A stretch of DNA of 23,249 nt. Source: a virus. How positions within the stretch are numbered: the stretch's first letter is position 1; the number at the start of each line of letters is the position of its first letter. Below are positions 963 through 23,249 of the stretch, one piece after another. The stretch lies in the IMG/VR virus record IMGVR_UViG_3300037963_005536, positions 3,241-26,489 of that record; one strand, written 5' to 3'. A program made the translations under genes and the position numbers. The notes under the pieces were generated by a model. The model saw only the letters and a program-made list of their open reading frames with translations. It searched no databases and was not told the DNA's origin.

Positions 963-970
963 ATGGGGAC

Positions 971-998
971 ACTATATACTAGGGAGATGGGGGTGCAA
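971..998 (-). promoter_or_regulatory. Sigma70-like promoter for the AT-hook-like/RuvB-like unit
   Basis: On the minus strand, TTGCAC (998-993) is followed by a 16-bp spacer and TATAGT (976-971). Only 8 nt separate the -10 box from the ATG at 962, so the expected start of transcription falls at or next to the start codon. The mRNA would be leaderless or nearly so. Confidence 0.6.
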
Positions 999-1055
999 GC
1001 ATTTTTTTGCCTTAATTCGATTTTTTTTCCACCAGAGGAGAGTGTATATAATAGT

Positions 1056-1385
1056 ATGAATCTTATTGTAGTTTCTGATTTGACTACAAACGAAGGATTA
1101 TATTTTCGCTATCTAACAATGCTTACTACTATTGACCTCCGATTGGATGTCCTAGTAGAGACGCAACAGCAACAAAGAGATTATTACTTTCGTTTGTTAA
1201 AAAGAAAAGGATTATACGATTACGTGCGCGACATGGTAACGCCAGAGGAAAGAGAAGAAGGAATAAGATTAGATACGGAGAGGAACTTTCCCCTAACTAT
1301 AACCGCAGAAAATATTTCGTGCGTTAATGTCATGAGCTTAATCTTACAAATTCAATCGTTAGTTTCCGTAAAGAAAAAAATATAA
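1056..1385 (+). CDS. Hypothetical protein, lone + strand gene
   Basis: The frame is open from 963, but the first methionine that makes a sensible protein is at 1056, giving 109 residues. The protein is charged and probably helical, with a QQQQRDYYFRLLKRKG segment and a C-terminus ending in KKKI. No family is recognised. A GAGGAG sequence lies at 1035-1040, about 15 nt before the ATG, which is too far for a normal ribosome binding site. A TATAAT at 1047-1052 is too close to the ATG to be a standard -10 box. The gene is divergent from the AT-hook-like gene and opposite to almost all neighbours. Residue composition looks protein-like, but support is moderate. Confidence 0.45.
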   Translation: MNLIVVSDLTTNEGLYFRYLTMLTTIDLRLDVLVETQQQQRDYYFRLLKRKGLYDYVRDMVTPEEREEGIRLDTERNFPLTITAENISCVNVMSLILQIQSLVSVKKKI

Positions 1386-1423
1386 AGTTCGATTAAAAAA
1401 TCTAATCACTTATTTGGAAAAAT

Positions 1424-1490
1424 ATCATTCGATCTGGGGCTTTTCCGCGCCTGTTTATTTGGGCCAAATCATTCGATCTGGGCTTTTTCC
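1424..1490. repeat. Two direct copies of a 23-bp sequence at a gene end
   Basis: Copies at 1424-1446 and 1468-1490 agree at 21 of 23 positions, with the shared core atcattcgatctggg. The second copy encodes the last residues of the secreted-protein gene (EKAQIE plus stop, read on the minus strand). The first, lying just beyond the stop, would encode EKPQIE plus stop in the same manner. It looks like a duplicated gene end. Confidence 0.75.
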
Positions 1491-2590
1491 TGAGATAGAT
1501 GATCATATTCCCACTCGGCAGAAACTCTAACTATTCCATAGCGTAACCAACGCAACAATGCATGGTCAGATAAAGTTTCACCAAAAGTGCCACGACGAGG
1601 TGGCAAATAAAACCAACCGCTTCTATCTCCTGCTTCCTCGGGTGGTAAATCTGGGCGGGAACCAAAGACTTCACTTCTGTAAACAATTTTAGGGCTACTT
1701 GAGGGCCATGAAATCTCAAAAATTGGATTACCCCACTCGTTAAGACCTAACCTTGCAGATACATCGGGTGCTGGTGGAGTGTTGCTCAGTTTATTTTTCG
1801 TTGGAGAAACGCCCACAGGGGGTTGTATCCAGATATAACCCTGCTTACCTCTTCTGTATACAAAGAACGCAGAGGGTAACTCTACATGACCATAATCGCC
1901 ATCTGGTGAGTTTGTTTTCTTCCACTCACCATCAAAATAATATTGCTCCCATTTACCATCAGAGTTATCGAACCCAATCGAATCACCATTAACACCTTTA
2001 CGGAAGCTGTGAGAGTTCTCTATGTCACATTCATCTAACCTCAAAGGCCAAGGGGTTCCTCTATTGACGATGTTGTAACCATTTTTAATGTTTAAAAATT
2101 TAGGGGAAGCATTAACATTTCCTCCAAAAACTAACAACCAATCTCTTTCTTGTCTAGATTGTAGAAAAAATCCCCCATTTTCAGGTATAGCAACTCGGGA
2201 TGCATCAGTGTCCCCGAAACCAATAGCCTTCCAACCCCTTGTCATCGGGGGTATTTCGGTAGTTAAGTCTTGGTCATTGTAGTATATCCCCAACCAAGAA
2301 CCGTCATCACGCCAAATCCATATTATATCTGCCTCTGTCGGATTGTTGCTATCAAATCCAAACGTAGGACTCTTTAAACCTGCTGCGTTTTCAAGGCCAA
2401 AAGCTTGTCCTATAGTTCTTACTAATCTACCGTGAGGCTGAGTAGCCACATTTATACCTATTAAATTATAAGTATTTGCTCTTACTATTTCTGAATGAAA
2501 CCCAAATAGGTTAGATTTAGATTCTTGAGATAACCCTAAAGATGAAAATGTAACAACAAGTAGGCTCGCTATGGTAGATAGTAGCTTGAT
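1469..2590 (-). CDS. Secreted protein with two similar modules, TIGR02597-like; start codon non-canonical
   Basis: A frame from ATC at 2590 gives 373 residues. It opens with a textbook signal peptide (KLLSTIASLLVVTFSS, then a small-residue region). The first ordinary start is a GTG at 2449, which would discard the signal peptide, so the ATC (or the ATA at 2596) is the more sensible origin. Two modules repeat the same plan: residues about 87-146 (IIWIWRDDGSW, then VAIPENGGFFLQSR) and 204-248 (SIGFDNSDGKWEQYYFDGEW, then VELPSAFFVYRRG). This plan, with TYNLIGIN after the signal peptide, resembles what I remember as TIGR02597, a family mostly from Verrucomicrobiota. Its function is unknown to me. 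It is the last gene of a long minus operon, directly after the sulfotransferase, and is probably host-modifying cargo. No phage structural role is evident. Confidence 0.65.
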   Translation of the reverse strand: MKLLSTIASLLVVTFSSLGLSQESKSNLFGFHSEIVRANTYNLIGINVATQPHGRLVRTIGQAFGLENAAGLKSPTFGFDSNNPTEADIIWIWRDDGSWLGIYYNDQDLTTEIPPMTRGWKAIGFGDTDASRVAIPENGGFFLQSRQERDWLLVFGGNVNASPKFLNIKNGYNIVNRGTPWPLRLDECDIENSHSFRKGVNGDSIGFDNSDGKWEQYYFDGEWKKTNSPDGDYGHVELPSAFFVYRRGKQGYIWIQPPVGVSPTKNKLSNTPPAPDVSARLGLNEWGNPIFEISWPSSSPKIVYRSEVFGSRPDLPPEEAGDRSGWFYLPPRRGTFGETLSDHALLRWLRYGIVRVSAEWEYDHLSQEKAQIE

Positions 2591-2619
2591 ATATATATTT
2601 ACACTATCTAGAGGGGTGT

Positions 2620-3291
2620 CTAAAAAGTATATTTAAATCTATCGCAATCTTCTTCGAAGATCGAGTAGATCATATCCGCTGTTTCTTGATTATAGTAATC
2701 TTTATAAGGCGTATGGTCAGTTGAATTGTCATGAGGTAAGTCACAATTTATATTTTTTATGTTATAATTCCTTATCATGTCACTAAAATCCCGCCTCAAA
2801 TTCTCAAACCTTAAAACTTCATTGACCTCAACGCCCCCATTAACCCATTCTATTTGCTTAAAAGCGGGGAGAAATGAGCGATCATGCTCTCTATTCTTGA
2901 GGGTTGCACAAAACTCACCAAAAGAAAGCTTATTACTTAGGTTGAATACGTTCCCTAAACCTAATTTGCGACCGAAATGATACATGGATACCACCCTGTC
3001 CCAAGGGTTTCTGCATACAGCAAAAGAAAAGCAGTCAAGTTCCAGCGGACTGATTACCTTAAGTAGTTCGTGAGGTCTAGCATGAGTGGGATCAAAGAAA
3101 TTTTTATATATATTATTATCTACAGACTTCTCTAGTTTCTCCTCATATTTTTTAACGATATTCCTATTTCCCAAATGCCTGACTATAGATGAGCTTGCAT
3201 TTTTAGGAATGCGTAAAAATAACAAATAATTAGTATCAACCGAAGAGGTTTGTAGAGAAGCTTTTAAGAAATCTAATAATGGGTCTTTCAT
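2620..3291 (-). CDS. Sulfotransferase family protein (Sulfotransfer_2-like)
   Basis: This 223-residue protein should transfer a sulfuryl group from PAPS to a hydroxyl or amine, probably on a carbohydrate or lipid. The 5-prime phosphosulfate-binding loop is visible at residues 27-35 (RIPKNASSS) and the 3-prime phosphate-binding element at about 88-106, with CRNPWDRVVSMYHF supplying Arg94 and Ser102. Both are typical of the family. No signal peptide is seen, so it acts in the cytoplasm. It sits between a small phage gene and the secreted-protein gene in a tight operon. Enzymes of this class are known in marine phages, where a role in modifying host surface glycans has been suggested; that role is inference here. 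Confidence 0.85.
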   Translation of the reverse strand: MKDPLLDFLKASLQTSSVDTNYLLFLRIPKNASSSIVRHLGNRNIVKKYEEKLEKSVDNNIYKNFFDPTHARPHELLKVISPLELDCFSFAVCRNPWDRVVSMYHFGRKLGLGNVFNLSNKLSFGEFCATLKNREHDRSFLPAFKQIEWVNGGVEVNEVLRFENLRRDFSDMIRNYNIKNINCDLPHDNSTDHTPYKDYYNQETADMIYSIFEEDCDRFKYTF

Positions 3292-3513
3292 CTAATCGGA
3301 TTCATAATCATACATCATAATAAATCCTTCGCCATTGCACTGCACACCCATTACGTTGTAACCAATCCACTCCTCCGCTTCCTCAAAAGTCATACCTTGT
3401 TTTTCGAAAACTTTAACCACTTTACTGTAGTCATAGATAAGCAATCCACTATCAGATACACCTGCTATAGCGTCCTCTAAGCCATGCAATATTAAAGCTC
3501 CGTCTTTAAGCAT
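3292..3513 (-). CDS. Conserved small phage protein of unknown function
   Basis: The 73-residue protein has the layout LHGLEDAIAGV, LLIYDYSKVVKVFEKQGMTFEEAEEWIGYNVMGV, ending in an acidic tail. I recall similar small proteins with GLEDAxxG and MSYEEAVEFFEFN segments from many phages, always unassigned. It overlaps the upstream gene by 8 nt and is followed at once by the sulfotransferase start, so it belongs to the same operon. The protein is acidic and soluble; no catalytic motif is visible. Confidence 0.75.
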   Translation of the reverse strand: MLKDGALILHGLEDAIAGVSDSGLLIYDYSKVVKVFEKQGMTFEEAEEWIGYNVMGVQCNGEGFIMMYDYESD

Positions 3514-3970
3514 GGAACCAAGATGGTGTGTCTCTCTTACTCCACTTAGCGAAGTAAGCCTTCTCCCCGTTGTAGTATGCTCTATATGCAGTAACAGAAC
3601 AATCGTTTTTGTATTGTTCTGGCATCGCTTGTGCGAACTTAGTCAATCCCTTGCTAGGTAAATTAAGTTTGTTGTAATTAAATTCACACCACTTAATAGT
3701 ATCAGAAGACTTATGAACCTTACCGTAGCGTCTAGTATACTCTCCGCACATAGCGTTAGCATGATCTAGCAACCACTCGTAGTTCTCTGCTGACTCTCTA
3801 GCCCACTTAGTGCAAGGATGATTGTAGAATGCCCTCTTGTATGGTGCATCACCATTAGGAAACACAGCACAGAGCATCTGCGCTGATTCTAAAATCATTT
3901 TAACAACGTGCTTATCGCACAATTGTTGTGCGGCGGTCTTAGGGTTGGTATCTACTGCAAATATATTCAT
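3506..3970 (-). CDS. Conserved phage protein with CDKHVVKM motif, unknown function
   Basis: I take the ATG at 3970 (154 residues), because a start at 4003 would lie inside the tRNA gene and the family typically begins MNIF. Key features are DTNPKTAAQQLCDKHVVKMILESAQML (Cys18, Asp19, His21, Glu28), then FYNHPCTKWARES (His51, Cys53) and a Trp-rich C-terminus. I recall this pattern from many phages and giant phages as an unassigned conserved family. The conserved His, Cys and Asp suggest an enzyme or a metal site, but I cannot name the reaction. It lies directly downstream of the tRNA and overlaps the next gene by 8 nt. Confidence 0.8.
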   Translation of the reverse strand: MNIFAVDTNPKTAAQQLCDKHVVKMILESAQMLCAVFPNGDAPYKRAFYNHPCTKWARESAENYEWLLDHANAMCGEYTRRYGKVHKSSDTIKWCEFNYNKLNLPSKGLTKFAQAMPEQYKNDCSVTAYRAYYNGEKAYFAKWSKRDTPSWFHA

Positions 3971-3975
3971 ACTTT

Positions 3976-4052
3976 TGGTAGGTGCAGTGGGACTTGAACC
4001 CACACTGGACGGATTTTAAGTCCGTTGTCTCTGCCAATTGGACTATGCACCC
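3976..4052 (-). tRNA. tRNA with anticodon UAA (tRNA-Leu), short variable loop
   Basis: The 77-nt gene on the minus strand folds as a cloverleaf: acceptor GGGTGCA with TGCACCT (the first pair is G-U), a 3-bp D stem GTC/GAC, anticodon stem ACGGA/TCCGT with loop CTTAAAA, a 5-nt variable loop CCAGT, and T stem GTGGG/CCCAC with loop TTCAAGT. Discriminator A and an encoded CCA end follow. The anticodon UAA reads the leucine codon UUA, which is common in this AT-rich genome. Bacterial leucine tRNAs normally carry a long variable arm; this one does not. It sits between two operon genes, so it must be cut from the polycistronic transcript. Confidence 0.9.
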
Positions 4053-4058
4053 GTCTTT

Positions 4059-4496
4059 TTATTTATCAACTTTGTCGTAATGAAAACCATCATTACCGTT
4101 GCGAGCGATAATGTCAATACGTTTTTGACCTTCAAGCTCTTGTTCTTCAGTCAACAATTTGGTATTTTCTGGTTCGATCTGGGATCTTTCCTCCAGAAGC
4201 ATGGCTTTAGCCAAGATAGCATAGTTAACTATATCATCACAAGCATCTTCTACAGTTTCATTGGGGACAGATAGTTTGCTGTCATTGGTGAACGAATAGA
4301 TTCTTTTTATTTTGTCGATTACGCGGAGAAGCAAGCCCTGCACGGGGTGGATGTCCAGTATTTTAGATGCATTAAAATTAGCGAAGGGATCGGTAGCATT
4401 TCTACCACCAGTGTAGTCGCTGTTTTTCTTTTTCATGATTGCCCTGCAAGCCTTACAGGTATCATCGTGGAGTTGTAATAATTGTTTTGCATTCAT
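4059..4496 (-). CDS. DUF1599 / nucleotide modification-associated domain 1 protein
   Basis: This 145-residue all-helical protein carries the KNSDYTGG motif at about 24-31, DPFANF at 36-41, and an acidic helix ETVEDACDDIVNYAILAKA at about 80-98. These match what I know as the DUF1599 or Nmad1 family (PF07659), found in phages and linked by genome context to nucleotide or DNA-base modification. The chemistry is not established. The last 30 residues are a charged tail. It overlaps the upstream PD-(D/E)XK-like gene by 4 nt (ATGA), and the tRNA gene begins 6 nt beyond its stop. Confidence 0.75.
   Translation of the reverse strand: MNAKQLLQLHDDTCKACRAIMKKKNSDYTGGRNATDPFANFNASKILDIHPVQGLLLRVIDKIKRIYSFTNDSKLSVPNETVEDACDDIVNYAILAKAMLLEERSQIEPENTKLLTEEQELEGQKRIDIIARNGNDGFHYDKVDK
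4173..4191. repeat. Third, diverged copy of the 1424-1490 repeat core
   Basis: The sequence ttcgatctgggatctttcc matches 17 of 19 bases of the copy at 1472-1490. It lies inside the Nmad1 gene and encodes ERSQIE there, near the EKAQIE end of the secreted-protein gene. Chance similarity is possible. Confidence 0.4.
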
Positions 4497-8063: not shown

Positions 8064-8624
8064 CTAAGGAAACAAAAAATGTGATTCTTCTTGTGTTTTT
8101 TTATCATCACTATGCAACCACCTTTCATGAGAATCTTCAATGATATGCATAGCGGTAGCTCGACTTTTCCACTGACCCACCCTTGTTTCTGAGTTCCTAT
8201 CTATTTTGTAGATCTTAAAAAACTGCCTATATATTTTTAAATGCTCCTCCTCTATATCTTTTAATGTTTTATATTTGTCGGCAGGTGACCAATGGGGGAC
8301 AGCAATAATCTTATTATCTACTTCCCCTCCATCTAAAAACTCCAAGACTCCTAACACCCTGCATGAGACTAAACTCCCCCTATCAATAGGATCGTGGTTA
8401 AAAACCAAAACATCCAATGGGTCGTTATCCAAGGCAATTGTCTGAGGAACAAAGCCATAATTAATTGGATATTGAAGAGATGAAACCAAACACCTTTCTA
8501 ATACAAAGATATTTAACTTTTCATCATACTCATATTTAGTATTAGTTCCCTTGGGAATCTCTACTATACAATTGAGGTGGACAAAGTTGTCGCTAGTAAT
8601 AGGAATGTCATCTACAAGATTCAT
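8064..8624 (-). CDS. ppa: Inorganic pyrophosphatase, family I
   Basis: The 186-residue enzyme hydrolyses pyrophosphate to two phosphates. The family signature DNDPLD is at 66-71, with Glu22, Lys30, Glu32, Arg44, Tyr52 and Tyr56 (QYPINYGFVP) in the expected order, and LDGGEVDNKIIAVP giving Asp98, Asp103 and Lys105 in place of the E. coli Asp97, Asp102 and Lys104. The catalytic set therefore looks complete. The C-terminal 40 residues (WKSRATAMHIIEDSHERWLHS) align with the usual C-terminal helix and extend it a little. The ATG overlaps the TGA of the preceding gene. In the phage it would pull DNA synthesis forward and use pyrophosphate released by MazG and polymerases. Confidence 0.93.
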   Translation of the reverse strand: MNLVDDIPITSDNFVHLNCIVEIPKGTNTKYEYDEKLNIFVLERCLVSSLQYPINYGFVPQTIALDNDPLDVLVFNHDPIDRGSLVSCRVLGVLEFLDGGEVDNKIIAVPHWSPADKYKTLKDIEEEHLKIYRQFFKIYKIDRNSETRVGQWKSRATAMHIIEDSHERWLHSDDKKTQEESHFLFP

Positions 8625-10702: not shown

Positions 10703-11392
10703 TCAGAATTTGTAGTTAAACCCTGCACCTACGACCCAATCGTTGTCGAGAGAGTAGGCAGATCCATCTACATCATTGTGGTTATAAGAAACTTTTGCAC
10801 CTACAGAAACATTGTTACCGAAATCATAATCAGCAGAAACCCCCACCTCTACTGCGTTGTAATCGTTAGCAATATTTACAGCAACAAATGGACTAACGGT
10901 AAGATTCTCTACAGGAACAGCAAAGTCACGGGAAACAGTGATTTCAACTCCATAAGAAGCATCGGTCCCTAGTTCATGCCAGAAAGTAGCATTCACATCT
11001 GCCCATTCATGAGAGTAGGTTAGACCAAGACCAGCTTCCTCCCAACCTCCGTAAGAAGATTCGATTTGCTGAAGATAAATCTCTGCTTCAAGGGATTGAC
11101 CAAGCACAGTTACTGGACGCGCCCAAGAAATCGAGAGGTCAGTGTCAGTTCCTCCGTCAGCATCGTAGATATCAACGCCAACCGAAGCAACCCCACCTTC
11201 AAACGAAGTGCCAAGAAGCACGGAGTAACCCAAAGAATCTTCCCTGACAGCCAACCCGCCACTAGTGGAAAGATTGCTGTAAGAAACGCTAGCATCCACA
11301 GAAATGTTTTCTGCAAGATCTACAGCGCTAATACCTGCGTTACCAATGGTAACGCCCAACATTGTTACAAGACTAAACAGTAATGTCTTCAT
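10703..11392 (-). CDS. Outer-membrane beta-barrel protein with its own promoter and terminator
   Basis: The 229-residue protein starts with a signal peptide (MKTLLFSLVTMLGVTIGNA, then G or ISA) and continues as alternating hydrophobic and polar strands with Tyr, Trp and Gly, such as VDASVSYSNLS, AEIYLQQIESSY and NNVSVGAKVSYNHND. It ends NYKF, the C-terminal Phe that marks outer-membrane barrels for the BAM machinery. The length suits an 8- to 12-strand barrel. A promoter sits right before the ATG and a strong terminator follows, so it is transcribed alone, as for a moron gene. It could block superinfection by masking a receptor, alter surface permeability, or help lysis. It could also be captured host DNA. 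No specific family is recognised. Confidence 0.8.
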   Translation of the reverse strand: MKTLLFSLVTMLGVTIGNAGISAVDLAENISVDASVSYSNLSTSGGLAVREDSLGYSVLLGTSFEGGVASVGVDIYDADGGTDTDLSISWARPVTVLGQSLEAEIYLQQIESSYGGWEEAGLGLTYSHEWADVNATFWHELGTDASYGVEITVSRDFAVPVENLTVSPFVAVNIANDYNAVEVGVSADYDFGNNVSVGAKVSYNHNDVDGSAYSLDNDWVVGAGFNYKF

Positions 11393-13201: not shown

Positions 13202-15313
13202 ATGGCGGCTGAAGGAAAAAACAAAGTGGCTAGTAGTCTACTCGACTTGCAATCCACCGCGATCTTGGAAATGTATAAAATTTTTCCAGATCGGATAAAT
13301 AAACCCACTCTTTTCATAGGTATTCATGGTGGGAGTGTTTTTGATAAAGCTATTGTGTGGCAAGGAGTTCAGTATTTACCGATGTCCATTGAGGCTGAAG
13401 GGTTCGATATTCTAGCTGATGGCAAACTGGCGAGACCAAAGATAAGAGTAGCTAACAAAAACAATCTTATTACAAACCTTTTGCAAAACAACAATGACCT
13501 AGTTAACGCAAAAATAATCAGAAAAAAGGTTCAGGTAAAGTATTTAGATGATGAGAATTTTGACGGCGGGAACCCATTTGGAGAGGCAGACTCTAAAGCG
13601 GAACTAGCAGACGATACATGGTTAATGGGAAGAAAAACCCAAGAGTCAAAAATTTTGGTTGAGTTTGAATTGTCCTCTCCGTTAGATTTAGAAAACTTTT
13701 CTGTAAACCCTAGAGGGGTGGTATCCAAGTTCTGCTATTGGCAATATAGGGGAGAGGGTTGTCGTTATGCAGGTCTTCCTATTGAGAGAGACGATGGAGA
13801 AGTATTTAAAAATCAAGATGGAGATCCTGTAGTTCCCACTTGGCCCTCAAGTTATAAAGCAGAAGGGTCTCCTGTAACCTATGTTGCTGATCCTGACGCA
13901 ATATGGCACGAGAATAGAATCTACGAAGAAGGAGACATCGTTTTTACAGAAAGCCCTACTATAAAGCTTTCTCCACCTGATGGAGCTGTCAACACAGAAG
14001 GATCGCCTTTGAGAACTTATTTTGTTTGTGTTAGTGGTGGCGATGCAAATAAAGGGCAACACCCAGAATGGAACCCCAGTTATTGGCAGAAAGACGGGTG
14101 CAGCAAAAGACTTAGTGCTTGTAAAAAAAGATTTAATACAGTTGATTTTGTTGAATTTGTTCAAGGACAGAACACCTTTTCAGGATTTAGCGGGGTAAAA
14201 ATTACAGGAGTGTCAAGTTTAGACAATAGGGCTATTCCTACCCATACAGGATTGTTTCACAGCACCGACCCCGCAGTGACAGGTCATTTTGACAAGAATT
14301 GGACGATAGTAGGATGGGCGCATACTAACGGAGCAACCCCAAGGGGAGGAGGGATTTTATCTACCTCGATGGGCGACAAGGGTAATTGGCCTATTAGTAG
14401 ATTTATAAATATAGGTAGAAAGCAAAGTCCTCGGATTGTTGCCAGTTTTTTGGGATGGGAGTTAAGCAGTAGCGAGGCCGCTGGCACTGCTTTTAGAGAA
14501 GTAGTTTTAAAAAACAACTTACAAACCAACGGGGAAGACAGAGAGTGGACAAGATATGTTATTACCAACAGCACAGGAACAGCGAATTTTATTAACGGAG
14601 AAGGGGACGACGAAGACACAATTATTAATTTTCATGTTAATGATAACAATATAGATCTGGGAGCTAATGACCCAGAAACTAGAAGGTTGTTGTCTCACAA
14701 TTTTGGAAACTTTGCTAGCTGGGGAGAGAGGAAGGCCATGACATGGGACACTTATTCCAAAAAAGCCACCCCTCAAACTTTCATGTTGGGAGCGCAAGAG
14801 TATTCACAAAATACACAAGGTTATGAAACCAATGATGGTTTCTATACTACCTCTATGAATGGTATATTAGGTCCGTGGGCCGTGTGGAATAGGAACTTGA
14901 ATCAAGAAGAGATCAGTTACCTTTATAAAACAATTCCCTCGCCTTATGGGGGGATAGAAAATACAGTAAGTTTTGTCCCGCGCCCTTACCATGAATGCAC
15001 AGGAAGGATGAGCACTTTAACAGGGGGAACTGGTGATGGAATGCCAGCAGGAACAGCCCCCCTTCTTTACGGACAACATAGTTTGGTTGCGTGGTGGGAT
15101 GGAAGCACGGGAAGCGCAGCAATTGGTAATGGTTTGCTTGATATTCACACAGGTGGAAATCACTTAACGGGAAGTGGAACCTTTAGCGGAGTAAGGGAAG
15201 ACTATTATATGCCATCTTCGACTTCAGTAGCTAACCCAACCCCACCCAACCCTAGATATGGAGGATTCCCAGGAACAGATGGATTTAGTTATGGAAGAAA
15301 CACAAGATTTTAA
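13202..15313 (+). CDS. Lambda L-like minor tail protein with inserted lectin-like domain
   Basis: The first 320 residues follow lambda gpL: a beta-rich start (SSLLDLQSTAILEMYKI), then four cysteines, Cys178 and Cys187 (FCYWQYRGEGCRY) and Cys300 and Cys307 (GCSKRLSACKKRF), which hold an iron-sulfur cluster in lambda. Between the pairs there is a chitin-binding-like segment (YEEGDIVF ... YFVCVSGG ... GQHPEWNPSYW). The C-terminus, RYGGFPGTDGFSYG, is the usual gpL end. Between about 318 and 680 a large domain is inserted, with the LamG/concanavalin-like features GPWAVWNRNLNQEEISYLY and a beta-sandwich pattern. The protein is therefore 703 rather than about 230 residues. It is the first gene of the rightward tail unit. 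Confidence 0.82.
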   Translation: MAAEGKNKVASSLLDLQSTAILEMYKIFPDRINKPTLFIGIHGGSVFDKAIVWQGVQYLPMSIEAEGFDILADGKLARPKIRVANKNNLITNLLQNNNDLVNAKIIRKKVQVKYLDDENFDGGNPFGEADSKAELADDTWLMGRKTQESKILVEFELSSPLDLENFSVNPRGVVSKFCYWQYRGEGCRYAGLPIERDDGEVFKNQDGDPVVPTWPSSYKAEGSPVTYVADPDAIWHENRIYEEGDIVFTESPTIKLSPPDGAVNTEGSPLRTYFVCVSGGDANKGQHPEWNPSYWQKDGCSKRLSACKKRFNTVDFVEFVQGQNTFSGFSGVKITGVSSLDNRAIPTHTGLFHSTDPAVTGHFDKNWTIVGWAHTNGATPRGGGILSTSMGDKGNWPISRFINIGRKQSPRIVASFLGWELSSSEAAGTAFREVVLKNNLQTNGEDREWTRYVITNSTGTANFINGEGDDEDTIINFHVNDNNIDLGANDPETRRLLSHNFGNFASWGERKAMTWDTYSKKATPQTFMLGAQEYSQNTQGYETNDGFYTTSMNGILGPWAVWNRNLNQEEISYLYKTIPSPYGGIENTVSFVPRPYHECTGRMSTLTGGTGDGMPAGTAPLLYGQHSLVAWWDGSTGSAAIGNGLLDIHTGGNHLTGSGTFSGVREDYYMPSSTSVANPTPPNPRYGGFPGTDGFSYGRNTRF

Positions 15314-15698
15314 AAGAGCAAGTTCTGCAATAAAGCATATAAAGGAGCTATCTCACAAAAACTTTACAAGAGAAATTTGTGGATTCCTTGGCTATGACAG
15401 AAACTTAAAAAAGTATATTGTTCAGCTGGAAAATAATATTGCACACGACCCTTCTTCCTTTTTCCTGATAGACCCTCTTAATTATTTACTTTTTAAAGAT
15501 AAGTATGCAATGATAGCTGTTTTTCATAGTCATGTAGTCGGCAACGAAGACGAATCAGAGTTTGATATAAAAATGGCAGACAACTGTTGTCATCCTTTTT
15601 TGATTTATAGCCTTAACACTAAAAAAATTAATATTTATACACCCAAAAACTCTGAAGTAGATGTAAATAAACTAGAGAGGATTAAGGCTGCATTATGA
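15279..15698 (+). CDS. Lambda K-like tail protein, JAMM (Mov34) domain only
   Basis: I choose the ATG at 15279, with AGGA 5 nt before it; 15258 and 15291 are other in-frame options, and all overlap the L-like gene. The 139-residue protein has the JAMM metalloprotease signature: Glu32 (REICGF), His83-Ser-His85, then seven residues, Ser93, two residues and Asp96 (FHSHVVGNEDESEFD). Lambda gpK carries this domain followed by NlpC/P60; the second domain is absent here. The product probably acts in tail-tip assembly. Cys residues at DNCCHP follow the active site. Its stop overlaps the next start (ATGA). Confidence 0.82.
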   Translation: MDLVMEETQDFKRASSAIKHIKELSHKNFTREICGFLGYDRNLKKYIVQLENNIAHDPSSFFLIDPLNYLLFKDKYAMIAVFHSHVVGNEDESEFDIKMADNCCHPFLIYSLNTKKINIYTPKNSEVDVNKLERIKAAL

Positions 15699-16324
15699 CA
15701 ACGGTAAAATTACATGGTATTTTGGCAACGGAATTTGGCAAAGTATTCAAAATGCAAATAGACAATCCTAAAAATGTCTTGGAGGCTATTGACTGCAATA
15801 GAAGTGGTTTTATTAGAAGGGTTATTGAACTCCAAAAAGACGGTTTTTGTTATGACATTATTATTAATAAAAATAAAATTGTTGATGGAAACCAAATGAA
15901 TTCTCTTAAGAATCCCGAAACAATAGATTTGGTTCCCGCTATTGTGGGAAGCGGAATTGGCATGGCAGTTAGTGCAATAGTTAGCGCAATAGGTCTTACT
16001 GGACTACCAGCACTTATAGCAAAAGTAATTATATTTGCTGCTATCGCTTACGCCTTAACACCCAAACCAGAATTTGACCAATTAGAAATAGAGGCTGACG
16101 CTTCAAAAACATCACTTGTTTTTAGTAACACAGTAAACACCGCCAGTCAGGGTTCTTTGGTTCCCATAGGTTATGGTAGGTTGAAAGTGGGATCTCAGGT
16201 CGTTCAAGCCTCTGTTAAGTCATATCCACAATCTCAAACAACAGAACAGACTTTCTTGAGGAATTCTCCGCTTGGAGACAATGCCCTAATTACCAATCGC
16301 GCTCCTAACGCTAATACCCAGTAA
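15695..16324 (+). CDS. Lambda I-like tail assembly protein
   Basis: The 209-residue protein lies between the K-like and J-like genes, the conserved position of gpI. The N-terminal half is a small beta-grasp-type region (MTTVKLHGILATEFGK), as in the lambda tail I family. A Gly/Ala/Ile-rich stretch (GSGIGMAVSAIVSAIGL, LIAKVIIFAAIAYALTP) lies at about 86-121, and the C-terminal part has GSLVPIGYGRLKVGSQVVQASV, the segment usual for this family. It is needed for tail-tip assembly and not for the final virion in lambda. It overlaps both neighbours (ATGA and TAATG). Confidence 0.85.
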   Translation: MTTVKLHGILATEFGKVFKMQIDNPKNVLEAIDCNRSGFIRRVIELQKDGFCYDIIINKNKIVDGNQMNSLKNPETIDLVPAIVGSGIGMAVSAIVSAIGLTGLPALIAKVIIFAAIAYALTPKPEFDQLEIEADASKTSLVFSNTVNTASQGSLVPIGYGRLKVGSQVVQASVKSYPQSQTTEQTFLRNSPLGDNALITNRAPNANTQ

Positions 16325-19300
16325 TGAGTCATATATTAAAAAAGGTAGGAATTGCAGGAGCGGGAGGCGGTGGAAAACCAAAACCCCCAATATATAGACC
16401 TCCACAACTAGGACAGCTTCAATATGGAGCTTCTTTTAGCTATTCTGAAACGTTAGACTTAATAAGTGACGGACCAATCGAAGGGTTAGTAAATAAAGAT
16501 GGAAACATTGTAAGGGGTCTCAAAATATTACAAGGAATTTATTTAGATGATACAGCAGTCGCCGTTAGCGATAATAATAATATTGGTCAGACGACAGCTG
16601 AAATAGATCAATTAACTGCTGAACTGGGAGCAATGCCTCTGACTAGCACCTCTGCTCCAACCTTTTGTAAGAAATATTTTTTAGAACTTCAAAATGCCAG
16701 CACCAGAAGTGCGGCTGGAAGAATTACAGCGTTACGATATTCAGCTGCGGACGGATCAATAATAGCTTCAGAAATAACAGAATTACCCAACGTAAACCTT
16801 GTTTACATTCAAACCAGAAACAATTTTAGGGTAAATCAAACAGAGATAATTCAAGGAGAAGGAACTTATTATCCTACAAAAGCAGATAGATATGCCCTAT
16901 TCATAAGAGCCTATCTAAAATACAGGCAATCTCTGGGAGCTGAGACTTTTGAATTCTTTTTAGATGGAAACAGAGTGACAGGGCTGAGTGATACAAACGC
17001 AGCATATAGAAACACCCATAAACTAAAAACTAACACAAGAGCTTGTTTCTGGACAGATAATACCACACTAGCAAATTCTAAATTTTTCTTTGGAGTTAAT
17101 GTAAACGCCTTTGACCCTAACACTTGGGCGTGGGGTTTGGGAAATTTTGGCCCAGAATGGTGGGGGACAGCTCCAAACTGGGCAATAAATTCAAATACTA
17201 TTAGGAACAATGATGCTGGAATTAGCGTCTTTCCTGATACTCACTTATTCGCAAATGAGTTCGCTAAAGAAGAGTTAGAAGCAATAAAGGCTTTATATGA
17301 TGAAGCCAACGGTTTGACATCTCCCAATATTTATCAAAAAACGGTGGCTGAACAAGCTCTCGCTAGACTTGGTTGGACAGAAGACAGCTCGATAGCTGAT
17401 TTGCTTAAGAATTTTTTAGGCCCAGCGGAGGTTGGGCCTATCATGGCTACGTGGGATAACCCATTTTGGTTTCAAGAGAGTGATGGACCCGCTTGGAACA
17501 TACAGGGTGGGGGCAATATGCTGCAAGAAAACAGTCAGATAGGTTTTGTTATTTTAAAAGTGGAAAACACGGGTAATTCGAACCTAGATGATAACAGTAT
17601 TGTAGATGACGGAAACGTTATAAATATGCAAAGCATTCTTGTGGGGGGGCTAAACGGGTATAATTTACAAAATTTATTGTCACAAAACCCAGCGTTTATG
17701 GACTACGTGGATGTTACCTGCCCCGAAGTCGATACTGATGGCAAAATGAATGGAAAAATGAGGGGTTTTGTCATCATAAAATTCAGAATAGACAAGGAAC
17801 AGGAAAGGGTGCGTTTTGACACCAATTTCGATGGCACTGTCAATGAACTTGATAACTATGCTCCCCACGGAATGACTCACACTTTTAATGTTGACGGAGA
17901 TTTAATAAACCTTTTGTCTGACATTTCGACCTTAACTTATACTTCAGTAGCAGATATGGAAGAGGTTGAGACTCAAGTAGAAGATGACTCAAGCACCGTT
18001 AATAGTTTTCCTATAACCAATTTAAAATATAATTACAGCAATGTAATGGCAGAGTTTAGACGGGGAGAAGAAAATCAAAGCCCGTTTAATTTCTTCAAAA
18101 GTATTTATATAGATCACATTTACAATAGGCAATTATTTGGGCCATTTGGAACCAAACGGGCCTCGATAGATAGAACACTAAACGCGCAAGTTAACGCTCC
18201 TCAAAGAATTTTTGCAAACTCTCTAATGCTCACAAGGTCACAAGTATTAGATCCTGTAGGAAGTGCGGGAAGCAGCAATGGTAAAAACTTCAACTTAGAT
18301 ATTGGTGAAGACAGCCTTCCTGTTAACGAAGGAAGCGATGACAATAGATATACGGGTCAAGACGGATCATACAGAAACTATTCTGAGTGGGGGAAAGATT
18401 CATTTGCACATTGGGACGAACAAGCTATCCCTGTTGTCCACACTGTTTATAATCCAAATGTAAAAAGTGCATTTATAACTTTGGACGTAACTTCTTTAAG
18501 AGACACACTTATTAAAGACGTTGAAAATGTTGATTTTACAGATGAGACGCTTAAGATAGGAACAACATTCCCTACTGTAGTAAACTTTAGAGTAGAAACG
18601 GGTAAAATTGGAAAGAACTCAGATGGGACAGACGGTCAGGAAATACCATACAGAACCTATGATTTTAAAATAGTAGCCTTAATTGAAGGAAACACTTTAA
18701 TTGATATAGGGAATCCTGAACTAGACCCCAATACAGCAAGGCAGTTTATTACTCCACTTAGTTCAGTAAATCAAACATCTACAGTAAACACACCCTTTGA
18801 GTTGCCTCCAACAAAGATTACACAACAAGAAATTCTCTCAGCAGACGGGGAAAGAGGTATAGAAGCAGGAACAATCGAGGAAGACAGCACACAAAAAAGA
18901 TATATTAAAGTAACTAAACTGTCTTATGAAACTAATTCTGTTCTTTTGTCTAAAGACATAAGTGTAAATAAAGTAACGGAAATTATTGATTGTAATCTAA
19001 CTTATCCATTTGCTTCAATTATTGCTACAAAATTAGACTCTAGGTCTTTCTCAAGTATTCCTAGAAGAAGCTTTGACTGTAAGTTAAAAAAAGTAAAAGT
19101 TCCAAGTAATTACTTTCCTGAAAAAGTAAATGGAAAAGACAAGAGGTATTATCAAACACAAGGAGAATTCGATGATGCTCCTAAGGAAGACAAGTTAGTT
19201 TATAAAGGAGATTGGAACGGTGAGTTTCATGACACCTTAAAATGGACAGATAACCCCGCTTGGATTCTTTACGATTTATTAACTAACAACCGCTATGGTA

Positions 19301-21237
19301 TGGGTTCTCATATTGACCCCACTACAATAAACAAATGGCAGTTATATAAAATAGGAAGGTTTTGTGATGCGGTGGATTCTAATGGATACTTTGAAGGAGT
19401 AACAGACGGCAGAGGTGGAAAGGAACCCCGTTTCTCTTGTAATATTGTATTTGATCAAGGACAGAAAATTTTTGATGCAATTAATACTATCTCCTCTCTG
19501 TTTAGAGGGCGCACCTTCTTTAATAGTTCAGAAATTAATTTTGTAGACGATAGGCCGCGAAACCCCGTTAATCTATTTACCAACGAATCAGTAAAAGACG
19601 GACTCTTCTATTATTCAAATAATCAAAGAGATCAACAGTTCAATACAATTGAAATTGGATTTAGGGATCGTTTTGATAACTTTAGTCCAAAGATTGAGGT
19701 TATTGAAGATGAAGCTGACATTATGCAGCGAGGAGTCTTTAAGAAGCGGATAGAGGGGATAGGAATAACTTCCAGATCAATGGCAAGAAGGGTGGGTCAA
19801 CACCAAATATATTCCAACATTAAAGAGAACCAAAATGTAGCGTTTACAGCGGGACTAGAAACCCTTTTGTGTAGACCTGGAGATCTAGTAATTGTAGAGG
19901 ACGAATTAAAAACAAATCACGCAAACTTCGGTAAAATTCTAAACGTAGACCTAGATGAAGAACAAATTAGAGTTTCTAATAAATTTATTACAGATGATTT
20001 TGATGGAAAATTAACTATTTATAATCCAACTGGAATAGATACAATTGGAGATATTGGTGATATAGCTACACTAAACAGAGAACGTTACTATAGCTTTGAG
20101 GTTACAGGTTTAGGCACTGATGCTTGGAGTAGCTATACGGGAGAATATGGTTTCTCGGGATATACTGAGGGTTACTCGGATGCCGTTGGGGGTATTGAAG
20201 GACAAAGTAAATTCCAACAATACGCTATGTATACTGGTGCAATAAGGACTGACGCTTCATATTTCGCCAGTGGAAACTTGCTTTACTTTGAAACTGGGGT
20301 TTCAGGCTGGGTATTTGGGTCTGGAAACGCAATAGAATTATATTCTGGAGATTTAATATCTAAATTAACTGGTGATCAAAGTCTGACAGCATTTAATACG
20401 GGAACAATAACAGAGATTGACATGACTGAGGCAAGTAAAAGAGCCACAGCAGGAGCAAAGAACCACTATCCATTTTCTGGAATAGACGAATCAACACTTC
20501 TCGTTGGGACGAGGGGGGTTCTGGAGTCAGAGGTTTCTGGAGTTACCCCCGAACAAATTACTGTTTTAAATGTTACAGGGGAAATTACAAACAAAAGCTA
20601 CGGATGTTTGATTTCGGGATTTGATAGGCCAGAACTTCTTCCTTTTGTTAAATTAGGAAGCCCAACTAAATTTGAAATTAAGAATGCTAGCGAATTCGTT
20701 TACAAGGTAACCTCCATGAAAGAAGAGGCTGCTAATGAATATTTAGTAACCGCAACTAAATACGACACAGGTAAATTTAATTTAATTGAAAACCATGTAA
20801 GTGTCGAAGATAAGCCCAATACTTACAGCTACAAGGTTTCTCAAAGCGTTAATGGAGTCACATATTCTACGTTAGATACTCCAGAAATAAAGTCTTTAAA
20901 TACAGGGATTCCCAACGCTGTTGACAATACTCTTAGTATTACAGGAATGTGGACAGATGTTGATAATAATACTGGATATAATGCTAGGTTAACCTTACCT
21001 AATGGATCACTCATATCATCAGGAAATGGACAATACGTTACAGGAATAGAGTTTACAGGACTAAATCAAGTAGGAGTGTATACATTAGAGGTTTGTGCTC
21101 TTGGTGACAATGTGGCAGCAGGAGGAAGCACAGCCTCATATTTTGATTCTCAATACGATTCATCTGGAATTTTTGTTCTTTACGATGAATTGGATGCATT
21201 CACTAAATCATTTGTAAATAACATACAGGTTTTATAA
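16324..21237 (+). CDS. Tail tip attachment protein J-like (host specificity)
   Basis: The 1637-residue protein is the central tail-tip protein that contacts the host receptor. The N-terminus (FSYSETLDLISDGPIEGLVN) matches the J start, and a conserved block begins near 915 (KVKVPSNYFPEK, DNPAWILYDLLTNNRYGMGSHID, GGKEPRFSCNIVFD, VDDRPRNPVNLFTN, then LCRPGDLVIVEDE). Compared with lambda J (1132 residues), roughly 600 to 700 extra residues precede VPSNY. That region includes an EF-hand-type loop at about 499-510 (DTNFDGTVNELD). The last 140 residues (about 1500-1637) are FN3-like. It starts at a TAATG junction with the I-like gene; the next gene follows its stop by 1 nt. Confidence 0.9.
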   Translation: MSHILKKVGIAGAGGGGKPKPPIYRPPQLGQLQYGASFSYSETLDLISDGPIEGLVNKDGNIVRGLKILQGIYLDDTAVAVSDNNNIGQTTAEIDQLTAELGAMPLTSTSAPTFCKKYFLELQNASTRSAAGRITALRYSAADGSIIASEITELPNVNLVYIQTRNNFRVNQTEIIQGEGTYYPTKADRYALFIRAYLKYRQSLGAETFEFFLDGNRVTGLSDTNAAYRNTHKLKTNTRACFWTDNTTLANSKFFFGVNVNAFDPNTWAWGLGNFGPEWWGTAPNWAINSNTIRNNDAGISVFPDTHLFANEFAKEELEAIKALYDEANGLTSPNIYQKTVAEQALARLGWTEDSSIADLLKNFLGPAEVGPIMATWDNPFWFQESDGPAWNIQGGGNMLQENSQIGFVILKVENTGNSNLDDNSIVDDGNVINMQSILVGGLNGYNLQNLLSQNPAFMDYVDVTCPEVDTDGKMNGKMRGFVIIKFRIDKEQERVRFDTNFDGTVNELDNYAPHGMTHTFNVDGDLINLLSDISTLTYTSVADMEEVETQVEDDSSTVNSFPITNLKYNYSNVMAEFRRGEENQSPFNFFKSIYIDHIYNRQLFGPFGTKRASIDRTLNAQVNAPQRIFANSLMLTRSQVLDPVGSAGSSNGKNFNLDIGEDSLPVNEGSDDNRYTGQDGSYRNYSEWGKDSFAHWDEQAIPVVHTVYNPNVKSAFITLDVTSLRDTLIKDVENVDFTDETLKIGTTFPTVVNFRVETGKIGKNSDGTDGQEIPYRTYDFKIVALIEGNTLIDIGNPELDPNTARQFITPLSSVNQTSTVNTPFELPPTKITQQEILSADGERGIEAGTIEEDSTQKRYIKVTKLSYETNSVLLSKDISVNKVTEIIDCNLTYPFASIIATKLDSRSFSSIPRRSFDCKLKKVKVPSNYFPEKVNGKDKRYYQTQGEFDDAPKEDKLVYKGDWNGEFHDTLKWTDNPAWILYDLLTNNRYGMGSHIDPTTINKWQLYKIGRFCDAVDSNGYFEGVTDGRGGKEPRFSCNIVFDQGQKIFDAINTISSLFRGRTFFNSSEINFVDDRPRNPVNLFTNESVKDGLFYYSNNQRDQQFNTIEIGFRDRFDNFSPKIEVIEDEADIMQRGVFKKRIEGIGITSRSMARRVGQHQIYSNIKENQNVAFTAGLETLLCRPGDLVIVEDELKTNHANFGKILNVDLDEEQIRVSNKFITDDFDGKLTIYNPTGIDTIGDIGDIATLNRERYYSFEVTGLGTDAWSSYTGEYGFSGYTEGYSDAVGGIEGQSKFQQYAMYTGAIRTDASYFASGNLLYFETGVSGWVFGSGNAIELYSGDLISKLTGDQSLTAFNTGTITEIDMTEASKRATAGAKNHYPFSGIDESTLLVGTRGVLESEVSGVTPEQITVLNVTGEITNKSYGCLISGFDRPELLPFVKLGSPTKFEIKNASEFVYKVTSMKEEAANEYLVTATKYDTGKFNLIENHVSVEDKPNTYSYKVSQSVNGVTYSTLDTPEIKSLNTGIPNAVDNTLSITGMWTDVDNNTGYNARLTLPNGSLISSGNGQYVTGIEFTGLNQVGVYTLEVCALGDNVAAGGSTASYFDSQYDSSGIFVLYDELDAFTKSFVNNIQVL

Positions 21238-21238
21238 A

Positions 21239-23249
21239 ATGGCTACTAACACCGCACCAGCAGGACTAAACGAATTATCTAAAACTCCAAGTGGCTCCTA
21301 CACTTGGACTGTTAGTGGAAACATTAATATTAGTGGAGCCACTGGAGCAGGGGGCTACCTTAGAAATGACGCAGTTAATCTAGGTATTACAGGAATTGAG
21401 TTGTTTATGGTTGCGGGTTTAACGGGGGCTGCAATTCCCACTGGAATAACTACCCCAGCCTCAAATCATTACTACGCTACAGCATCAAAGGATTGGGGAG
21501 CTGGGGTTTGGGGACCAAGAGGAAATATTGATTATACTGCCGCAGTCGGTGGTGCCGATAGTCCACTACTACCTGACACGGAATATAGATACGCTTTATG
21601 CTTTAAAACTTTGGGTGGTGTTCAGGTGCTTTCAGGAAAGGCTAGGGATGGAACATCGGCCAGTGATCCTTTCTGTGAGTTTGTGTCTACCACTGTTGCT
21701 GAGTGGGATTTTGTTTCAGAATATACTATTGATCAAGACGACCTCACAACAACTGGTGAGGGAAGTGGGATTACCCATATGCCTGGAGGCTCAGTTGTAG
21801 TTAACAGTGTTTTTGTTGATAATCAGGGAAATCAAGCAGGAACCGCTGGTGCTTTTGCTGCTAGCCCAAGTCTTAGTGGTAATACCGTCAACCTGCGAGA
21901 CAAAAACAGGGAGATGGTTTATTCGGGATATAAAGAAAACCACAATAGTCCTGTTTTGGCTATTCCACAAGAAGATTTGGTTGCATATTTAGGATCACCC
22001 ACTCCAAACTTTTGTGTCGAGCAAGTAGTAACAGATATAAAAAGCGGACAAAACGTGTCCTTTATGGATATCCGTGGAAATTATCCAAGGATCGTAAAAA
22101 TCTGGACAGAGGACAAAAATGGAACCAAGTTAAACGAAAGCTATAGAAACTTCGAACTCTTAGACACGGGAAACATTTCAAATGCAACCTATAGAGAAGA
22201 CGCTATAAAATTTCAAAATAACCAAGTAATAAGCGATGTCGCACACTCGGGAGGTATTATTTTAACTTTTGCTTTCGAGCCTGATCAAACAGTGGTAACT
22301 AAAAGAGAAATAAATTTATTTACAGGTGATTCGGCTGAATCGGTTAATACTGATTATACTTCATGGGCAGGAACTGTGCCTCTTAATCAAACTGAAGTAG
22401 GACAAACTGTTAGGCTTACATCTACAGATGGATACCCCGAAGAGACAGATATATATTTTAAAGCTATAGTGGGTGGCTCCATTGGTTACTCTGAAGAAAT
22501 ATTTCAATTTGGACCATGTAAGATAGCTACCATTACTGGAGCAGAAAATTTGGACATGCATACTGTTGGAAACCAAACGCTTCAGGGTAGCCTTCTAATT
22601 AAAGACCCAGCCGATCCAACAGAGTCTACTTACGGTTTAAAAGTAACCGCCCACGACAGCGATCTTAAATTAGCAACCACTGATGGATATTCGATTGAAT
22701 CGACAAAAAAATCCAGAATATCCTCTATTGATAGTCAAGGTTATTCGACAGCGATAGCCCTCTTAGGTGGGTCAGGAAATCTCATAACAGGAGACTATGA
22801 TGTAATTGCGGGAGGAGCAACAGCAACAATATCAGGGGGAGATTATTGCTTTATTGGAGGAGGTTCTGGTGTTGATATCACAGGAAGTAATTATTCCTCA
22901 AGTGTTGGTGGGTATAATAATGATGTTAGAAAAAGCGACTATTCTGTTATAGCGGGAGGATATAGTAATCAATTAAATGATAATTGCGATACTTCTATAA
23001 TTGGAGGCGGTTATACGAACCACATTAGCGGAACTAGTAATGCTTGTATTATAGCAGGAGGATACGGAAATAAGATTTCAGGAGCTGATGGATCAGCAAT
23101 TGGTGGAGGAACAAATAATACAATCCAGAATGCTAATGTAGCCTTCATCGGCGCAGGAGGAACTAATGTTATAGAAAAAGGTTCTACATACTCCCAAATA
23201 GCAGGGGGGTTAGGACATAAGGTTTCAGGAACAAATTCTGCCATATTGG
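21239..23249 (+). CDS. Tail fibre or adhesin with YadA-type repeats, cut by window edge
   Basis: The first 670 residues are present and the frame is open at the edge. It starts 1 nt after the J-like stop, where a side tail fibre is expected. The first 480 residues are beta-rich, with short Gly/Thr/Asn repeats (SGATGAGG) and two Trp-containing segments, and no catalytic motif is obvious. From residue about 500 the sequence becomes a series of about nine repeats of 15-17 residues with the pattern I-x-GG-xxN-x-I-x-G (IAGGYGNKISG, AIGGGTNNTIQ). This is the pattern of trimeric YadA-type head repeats also found in phage fibres. A stalk, receptor-binding tip or chaperone probably follows beyond the window. 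Confidence 0.75.
   Translation, partial: MATNTAPAGLNELSKTPSGSYTWTVSGNINISGATGAGGYLRNDAVNLGITGIELFMVAGLTGAAIPTGITTPASNHYYATASKDWGAGVWGPRGNIDYTAAVGGADSPLLPDTEYRYALCFKTLGGVQVLSGKARDGTSASDPFCEFVSTTVAEWDFVSEYTIDQDDLTTTGEGSGITHMPGGSVVVNSVFVDNQGNQAGTAGAFAASPSLSGNTVNLRDKNREMVYSGYKENHNSPVLAIPQEDLVAYLGSPTPNFCVEQVVTDIKSGQNVSFMDIRGNYPRIVKIWTEDKNGTKLNESYRNFELLDTGNISNATYREDAIKFQNNQVISDVAHSGGIILTFAFEPDQTVVTKREINLFTGDSAESVNTDYTSWAGTVPLNQTEVGQTVRLTSTDGYPEETDIYFKAIVGGSIGYSEEIFQFGPCKIATITGAENLDMHTVGNQTLQGSLLIKDPADPTESTYGLKVTAHDSDLKLATTDGYSIESTKKSRISSIDSQGYSTAIALLGGSGNLITGDYDVIAGGATATISGGDYCFIGGGSGVDITGSNYSSSVGGYNNDVRKSDYSVIAGGYSNQLNDNCDTSIIGGGYTNHISGTSNACIIAGGYGNKISGADGSAIGGGTNNTIQNANVAFIGAGGTNVIEKGSTYSQIAGGLGHKVSGTNSAIL
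22735..23249 (+). repeat. Tandem head-type repeats in the fibre gene
   Basis: About nine protein repeats of 15-17 residues share I-(A/G)-G-G-(x)-x-N-x-(I/V)-x-G and are diverged at DNA level, so they are best seen in translation. They continue to the end of the window. Confidence 0.7.

Follow-up and report, generated by a model that had tools for sequence, protein, structure and literature searches.

A protein encoded by an uncultured phage at positions 1469–2590 (minus strand, 373 codons) of the window, the 23,249-nt stretch of DNA analysed here, is on profile evidence a homologue in the wider TIGR02597 superfamily and not a member of the curated TIGR02597 family. Homology, a signal-like sequence, a single phage clade, cassette-like exchange and purifying selection were observed for this gene. 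The account that brings these together, an exported two-module protein of a phage clade that is carried as exchangeable cargo and alters the envelope during infection, is moderately probable as a whole.

The gene lies in a hypervariable locus between two anchors, a DUF1599-like protein on the left (4059–4496, minus strand; E 2.7e-4, below the gathering score) and, on the right, a convergent ORF of cluster c6 (963–1385, plus strand) that is conserved across contigs. Between these anchors, 36 contigs carried 22 different gene sets of 0.4 to 7.6 kb. The locus is rich in glycan-modifying genes, and its cargo types comprise GT2 and GT34-like transferases, sulfotransferase, formyltransferase, GDSL hydrolase, cupin and DNA glycosylase. 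The window itself contains a sulfotransferase (2620–3291, minus strand; Sulfotransfer_2, E 3.3e-12) and a pyrimidine-dimer DNA glycosylase-like gene (3506–4003, minus strand; Pyr_excise, E 6.4e-13), the frame of which overlaps a tRNA-Leu (TAA) gene (3976–4052, minus strand) and the true start of which is probably nearer 3970. A long run of sugar-biosynthesis-like genes, named by reading of their sequences only, occupies 39–50 kb (L012, L013) of G001, another IMG/VR phage record of 104 kb; it appears to include a sialic-acid (NeuB-type) synthase-like gene, an epimerase and an aminotransferase, and is possibly a phage glycan pathway.

Comparison of the window with G001 and with a further IMG/VR phage record, G002, showed that the gene has been exchanged. 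Identity reached 93.5% to G001 over 2604–1455 and 97.9% to G002 over 2609–2094, where the G002 contig stops, whereas the neighbouring cargo genes displayed 73–80% identity or no homology, and the segment borders were sharp. The gene order is reversed in G001, where the gene precedes the sulfotransferase, while in the window it follows it. On the left, identity begins at 2604 against G001 and at 2609 against G002, and the edge of the transferred segment is formed by the conserved 5′ border GTGTAAATATATAT (2591–2604, minus strand), located directly before the start codon; GTGTAAATATA is also found upstream of the more distant phage genes L235 and L222. The right edge is a copy of a repeat, here named R, with the sequence CCCAGATCGAATGATTTGGCCCAAATAA (1455–1482, minus strand), which overlaps the 3′ end of the gene. 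As read from these alignments, the gene is an exchangeable cargo that moved as a unit bounded by the conserved 5′ sequence and R. The preliminary description had proposed a cargo gene that may act at the host surface; its cargo nature agrees with the cassette-like exchange, and action at the host cell surface is probable.

Repeat R has the form CCCAGATCGAA-N10-CCAAATAA with a length of 28–29 nt, and constitutes the 3′ border of the gene. A pattern search recovered a second copy, CCCAGATCGAATGATATTTTTCCAAATAA (1410–1438, minus strand), giving two copies in the window against none expected in shuffles. R was found in 52 IMG/VR stretches, all but five of which lie on contigs with genes common to G001; the five exceptions, in which the spacing is 31 nt, are unrelated. 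An unrelated virus group (L208, L209, L221, L237 and L242) carries one conserved 31-nt match to the pattern, probably by chance or as coding sequence. Wherever a contig extends as far as the 3′ end of a TIGR02597-like gene, R lies at most about 40 bases from that end; many contigs also have R where the DUF1599-like anchor gene terminates, and R is present just ahead of the convergent c6 ORF. None was found in 388 Verrucomicrobiota genomes. Two other roles were considered for R and set aside: a genome-wide promoter was rejected, since all copies in G001 fall either in the cargo region on the right or in a single non-coding stretch, and a terminator or known RNA received no support, with no terminator-like site at R. 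Promoter-like sites around the gene numbered 6 against 7.0 expected.

What R does has two readings, and their competition leaves the account of the protein untouched. R may be a regulatory or replication site (an operator, a processing signal or an iteron) located at gene borders, with exchange proceeding by ordinary homologous recombination through conserved flanks; this stands at about an even chance. The starts of the tandem copies are separated by 31 bases, close to three helical turns, degenerate tandem copies occupy a non-coding stretch of G001 at about 99.1–99.3 kb, and the 5′ flanks resemble one another, all of which speak for this reading. Against it, R coincides exactly with the exchange border, few further copies exist in G001, and in some genomes one gene ends with R or another begins with it, ORFs c31 and c50 running through R or starting within it. 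The other reading, that R is a dedicated gene-shuffling site at which site-specific recombination of single genes with a 3′ R exchanges envelope-modifying proteins, one of them started at AUC, is rather improbable. A regulatory function for R, with R acting in addition as a border of recombination, is slightly favoured over an actively used recombination site. Several degenerate tandem versions of R (approximately CAGATCNAACGNAAATAAYYTAAATAA) were seen in non-coding DNA at L001 14510–14690 and at record bases 2–118 of G000, and such a stretch may be a replication or packaging site.

R bears a partial likeness to two types of mobile cassette. Mobile regulatory cassettes (PeSL) of T4-type phages, reportedly described by Arbiol et al. 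in 2010 (a paper cited in PMC4177764), similarly involve a short repeated intergenic element bordering shuffled genes in a hyperplastic phage region; they are characterized by an early promoter with stem-loops in the repeat, whereas R has no stem-loop, promoters around the gene do not exceed chance, and R belongs to a phage group without a close cultured relative. Integron cassettes, in which each gene carries attC at its 3′ end, share with the present case an exchanged unit of one gene plus a 3′ repeat. However, R is only 28–29 nt long and showed no attC-like palindrome on alignment and inspection, several cargo genes are without R, and a non-systematic look identified no integrase.

The frame of 373 codons is open with exactly the limits first proposed, running from a probable AUC start (2590–2588) to a TGA stop (1471–1469), and its reality as a coding sequence is backed by homologues and by dN/dS. 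A putative signal peptide, IKLLSTIASLLVVTFSSLGLSQ (2524–2590, minus strand), was read by eye; its initiator is probably read as Met, and it forms a helix in the structure model. Its position is conserved in the aligned N termini of L205, L235, L243 and L222, and by inspection of such alignments a predicted export signal is present in every phage copy that extends to the N terminus, which supports the initial designation of the protein as secreted. The designation as phage-carried was confirmed. Since no in-frame ATG, GTG or TTG precedes the signal peptide, a mechanical ORF finder begins the gene at GTG 2449 and the signal peptide is lost.

Initiation at the ATC codon 2590–2588 is the best reading of the start. 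The distant phage genes L235, L243 and L222 have ATG at the base aligned with the window ATC (start regions GTGTAAATATACATATG in L235 and GTGTAAATATAAATATG in L222, against GTGTAAATATATATATC in the window), the same ATC is common to the window, G001 (L001) and G002 (L002), and dN/dS between the window and G001 was 0.165 (0.035/0.211), indicating that the protein is under purifying selection; the corresponding values for G002 (0.019/0.036) are less clear. No Shine-Dalgarno sequence was visible upstream of the ATC. The missing canonical start ahead of the signal peptide might instead mark a decaying remnant, a gene dead or drifting in the window lineage, but this is improbable given the low dN/dS against G001 with the frame open in both and the identical ATC in three contigs whose segments are 93–98% identical.

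It is likewise unlikely, and a little more so, that the product is a virion component, an unusual tail or capsid-decoration protein in place of an exported modifier of the host. Phage tails are often beta-rich and a tail module lies in the same window (13202–23248), but every phage copy with an N terminus has a Sec-type signal peptide, the gene sits in the variable cargo locus outside the tail module, it is missing from most sister contigs, and its product has no PHROG match. Within that module, the phrog_18 match of a minor tail protein (13202–15313) is confined to residues 49–193, and the impression is that the other ~500 residues may be an inserted lectin-like domain.

The relation to TIGR02597 was established with profiles. 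The curated model, with a whole-protein cut-off of 50 bits, gave no match to the window protein at E<=1 or E<=10, so that the HMM search of the 373 residues proposed as a check came out negative, an outcome named beforehand as refuting, and the protein falls outside TIGR02597 as NCBI defines the family. Searches of Pfam, PHROGs, NCBIfam and PDB sequences with the window protein gave no match either, nor did tblastn against 50,697 phage records, and a scan of the genome contigs with the same protein found no relative. In contrast, an iterated profile built from TIGR02597 loci of Verrucomicrobiota genomes and grown to 23 proteins matched the window protein with 36.4 bits, co-linearly over residues 26–253, against 4.5 bits for the best of 2000 shuffles and 5.5 bits for the best unrelated ORF. 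In the reverse direction, a scan of 388 Verrucomicrobiota genomes with phage profile A1 detected relatives in 6. The wider phage profile A4 matched 16 genomes among 289 of the same phylum (best 2.4e-37) and 0 of 149 Planctomycetota; one A4 target (G007:C38:26674-27267, 1.4e-21) lies inside a frame whose own TIGR02597 score, 51.2 bits, exceeds the cut-off. These reciprocal matches, far above the shuffles, show that homology to the superfamily is real. The resemblance noticed at the outset therefore holds at the level of the superfamily and fails at the curated cut-off. Convergence on similar W/Y/G-rich beta repeats with no common ancestry, for which the silent curated model could be cited, is highly improbable in view of the co-linear match, controls of at most 5.5 bits and reciprocal matches as low as 2.4e-37.

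Features of the protein agree with this placement. Like TIGR02597 proteins, a paralogue family in NCBIfam, it combines a predicted N-terminal export signal and an N-terminal G-F strand motif with two tandem modules of the type D-x-(I/V)-W ... W(K/R) ... G-F-x-(I/V)-x-R in identical order, and the likeness is detectable with an iterated profile. The duplication first noticed by eye is upheld by BLASTP, in which module 1 matched module 2 with E 0.003 for the window protein and E 4e-6 for the homologue L205. The protein differs from TIGR02597 proteins in being phage-encoded and below the curated cut-off, in lacking a beta domain of ~75 residues that would separate module 1 from the N-terminal strand, and in an extra C-terminal domain of ~110 residues that phage copies alone have. 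The nearest cellular relatives, with ~23–27% identity, form an unmodelled Verrucomicrobiota sister family (L156/G229, L155=L258/G146 and L157/G007; 2.4e-37 to 3.2e-25), of which the two members scanned, L156 and L155, miss TIGR02597 as the window protein does; these proteins come from cellular genomes, retain the beta domain and are without the C-terminal domain. The phage C-terminal domain matched nothing in the cellular members, nor any further protein of these phages, and its identification with c27, a small secreted protein encoded by sister phages, was rejected after a negative comparison.

A quick maximum-likelihood tree placed the seven phage proteins together with support 100, as a single clade that is nested within Verrucomicrobiota paralogues (SH-aLRT 90–96) and has deep internal splits. 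Such a single nested clade with deep splits inside would be most simply read as one acquisition followed by long residence in phages. The structure model of the window protein is beta-rich and of fair quality (pLDDT 76.6, pTM 0.72), and Foldseek of the model against PDB and BFVD returned no credible match.

Near-restriction to Verrucomicrobiota, stated in the preliminary description, was corroborated, as the TIGR02597 model had matches in 14 of 37 Verrucomicrobiota genomes and in 0 of 14 control genomes, which alone cover Bacteroidota and Pseudomonadota, if these are covered at all. The mixed profile A3, which includes the sister family, found 34 of 145 Verrucomicrobiota, 0 of 35 genomes of other phyla and 3 of 149 Planctomycetota, the last with weak matches. 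Because the family is concentrated in Verrucomicrobiota, a host in this phylum is plausible and somewhat favoured. The clue seen in the gene remains suggestive through the family distribution, but no relative of the terminase was found in 269 Verrucomicrobiota genomes, or of an outer membrane protein of the window in 140. Terminase and tail-fibre searches of cultured phages gave distant matches alone, mostly to phages of Bacillota and enterobacteria. The contigs are presumably marine, judging from their record numbers. The outer membrane protein just mentioned (10703–11392, minus strand) bears a signal peptide, is beta-barrel-like, adjoins holin and endolysin genes and had no relative in phage records. 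An inorganic pyrophosphatase (8064–8624, minus strand), common to sister phages, matched a bacterial model at E 2.7e-39, below the cut-off.

We know of no function for TIGR02597 proteins, and the name was not found in the literature searched. In the proposed mechanism, the phage-specific clade would have arisen in the Verrucomicrobiota TIGR02597 superfamily by losing the N-terminal beta domain and acquiring the phage-only C-terminal domain. The protein would be synthesized during infection from a weak AUC start, exported via Sec and located in the periplasm or at the outer surface, where together with the adjacent glycan-modifying enzymes it might alter the envelope, for instance so that receptors are masked or superinfection is blocked. 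In this account we infer initiation at AUC, the location of the protein, its function at the surface and the Verrucomicrobiota host. The presence of a signal peptide, with glycan-editing genes alongside, points to the host envelope as the target. The role tentatively put forward, with chances somewhat below even, is a surface change in the course of infection, for instance one that excludes superinfecting phages or masks receptors.

Mizuno et al. 2013 (PMC3861242) reported what was, to those authors' knowledge, the first marine phage of Verrucomicrobiota. The present results tie a group of uncultured phages to a family of secreted proteins that is concentrated in Verrucomicrobiota, for which few phages are known. 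They provide a family marker that standard annotation overlooks, the curated model giving no match and the start codon being non-canonical. They also define a repeat-bounded hypervariable locus at which envelope-related genes are swapped, and therefore open both gene shuffling and modification of the surface to experimental tests in these phages.
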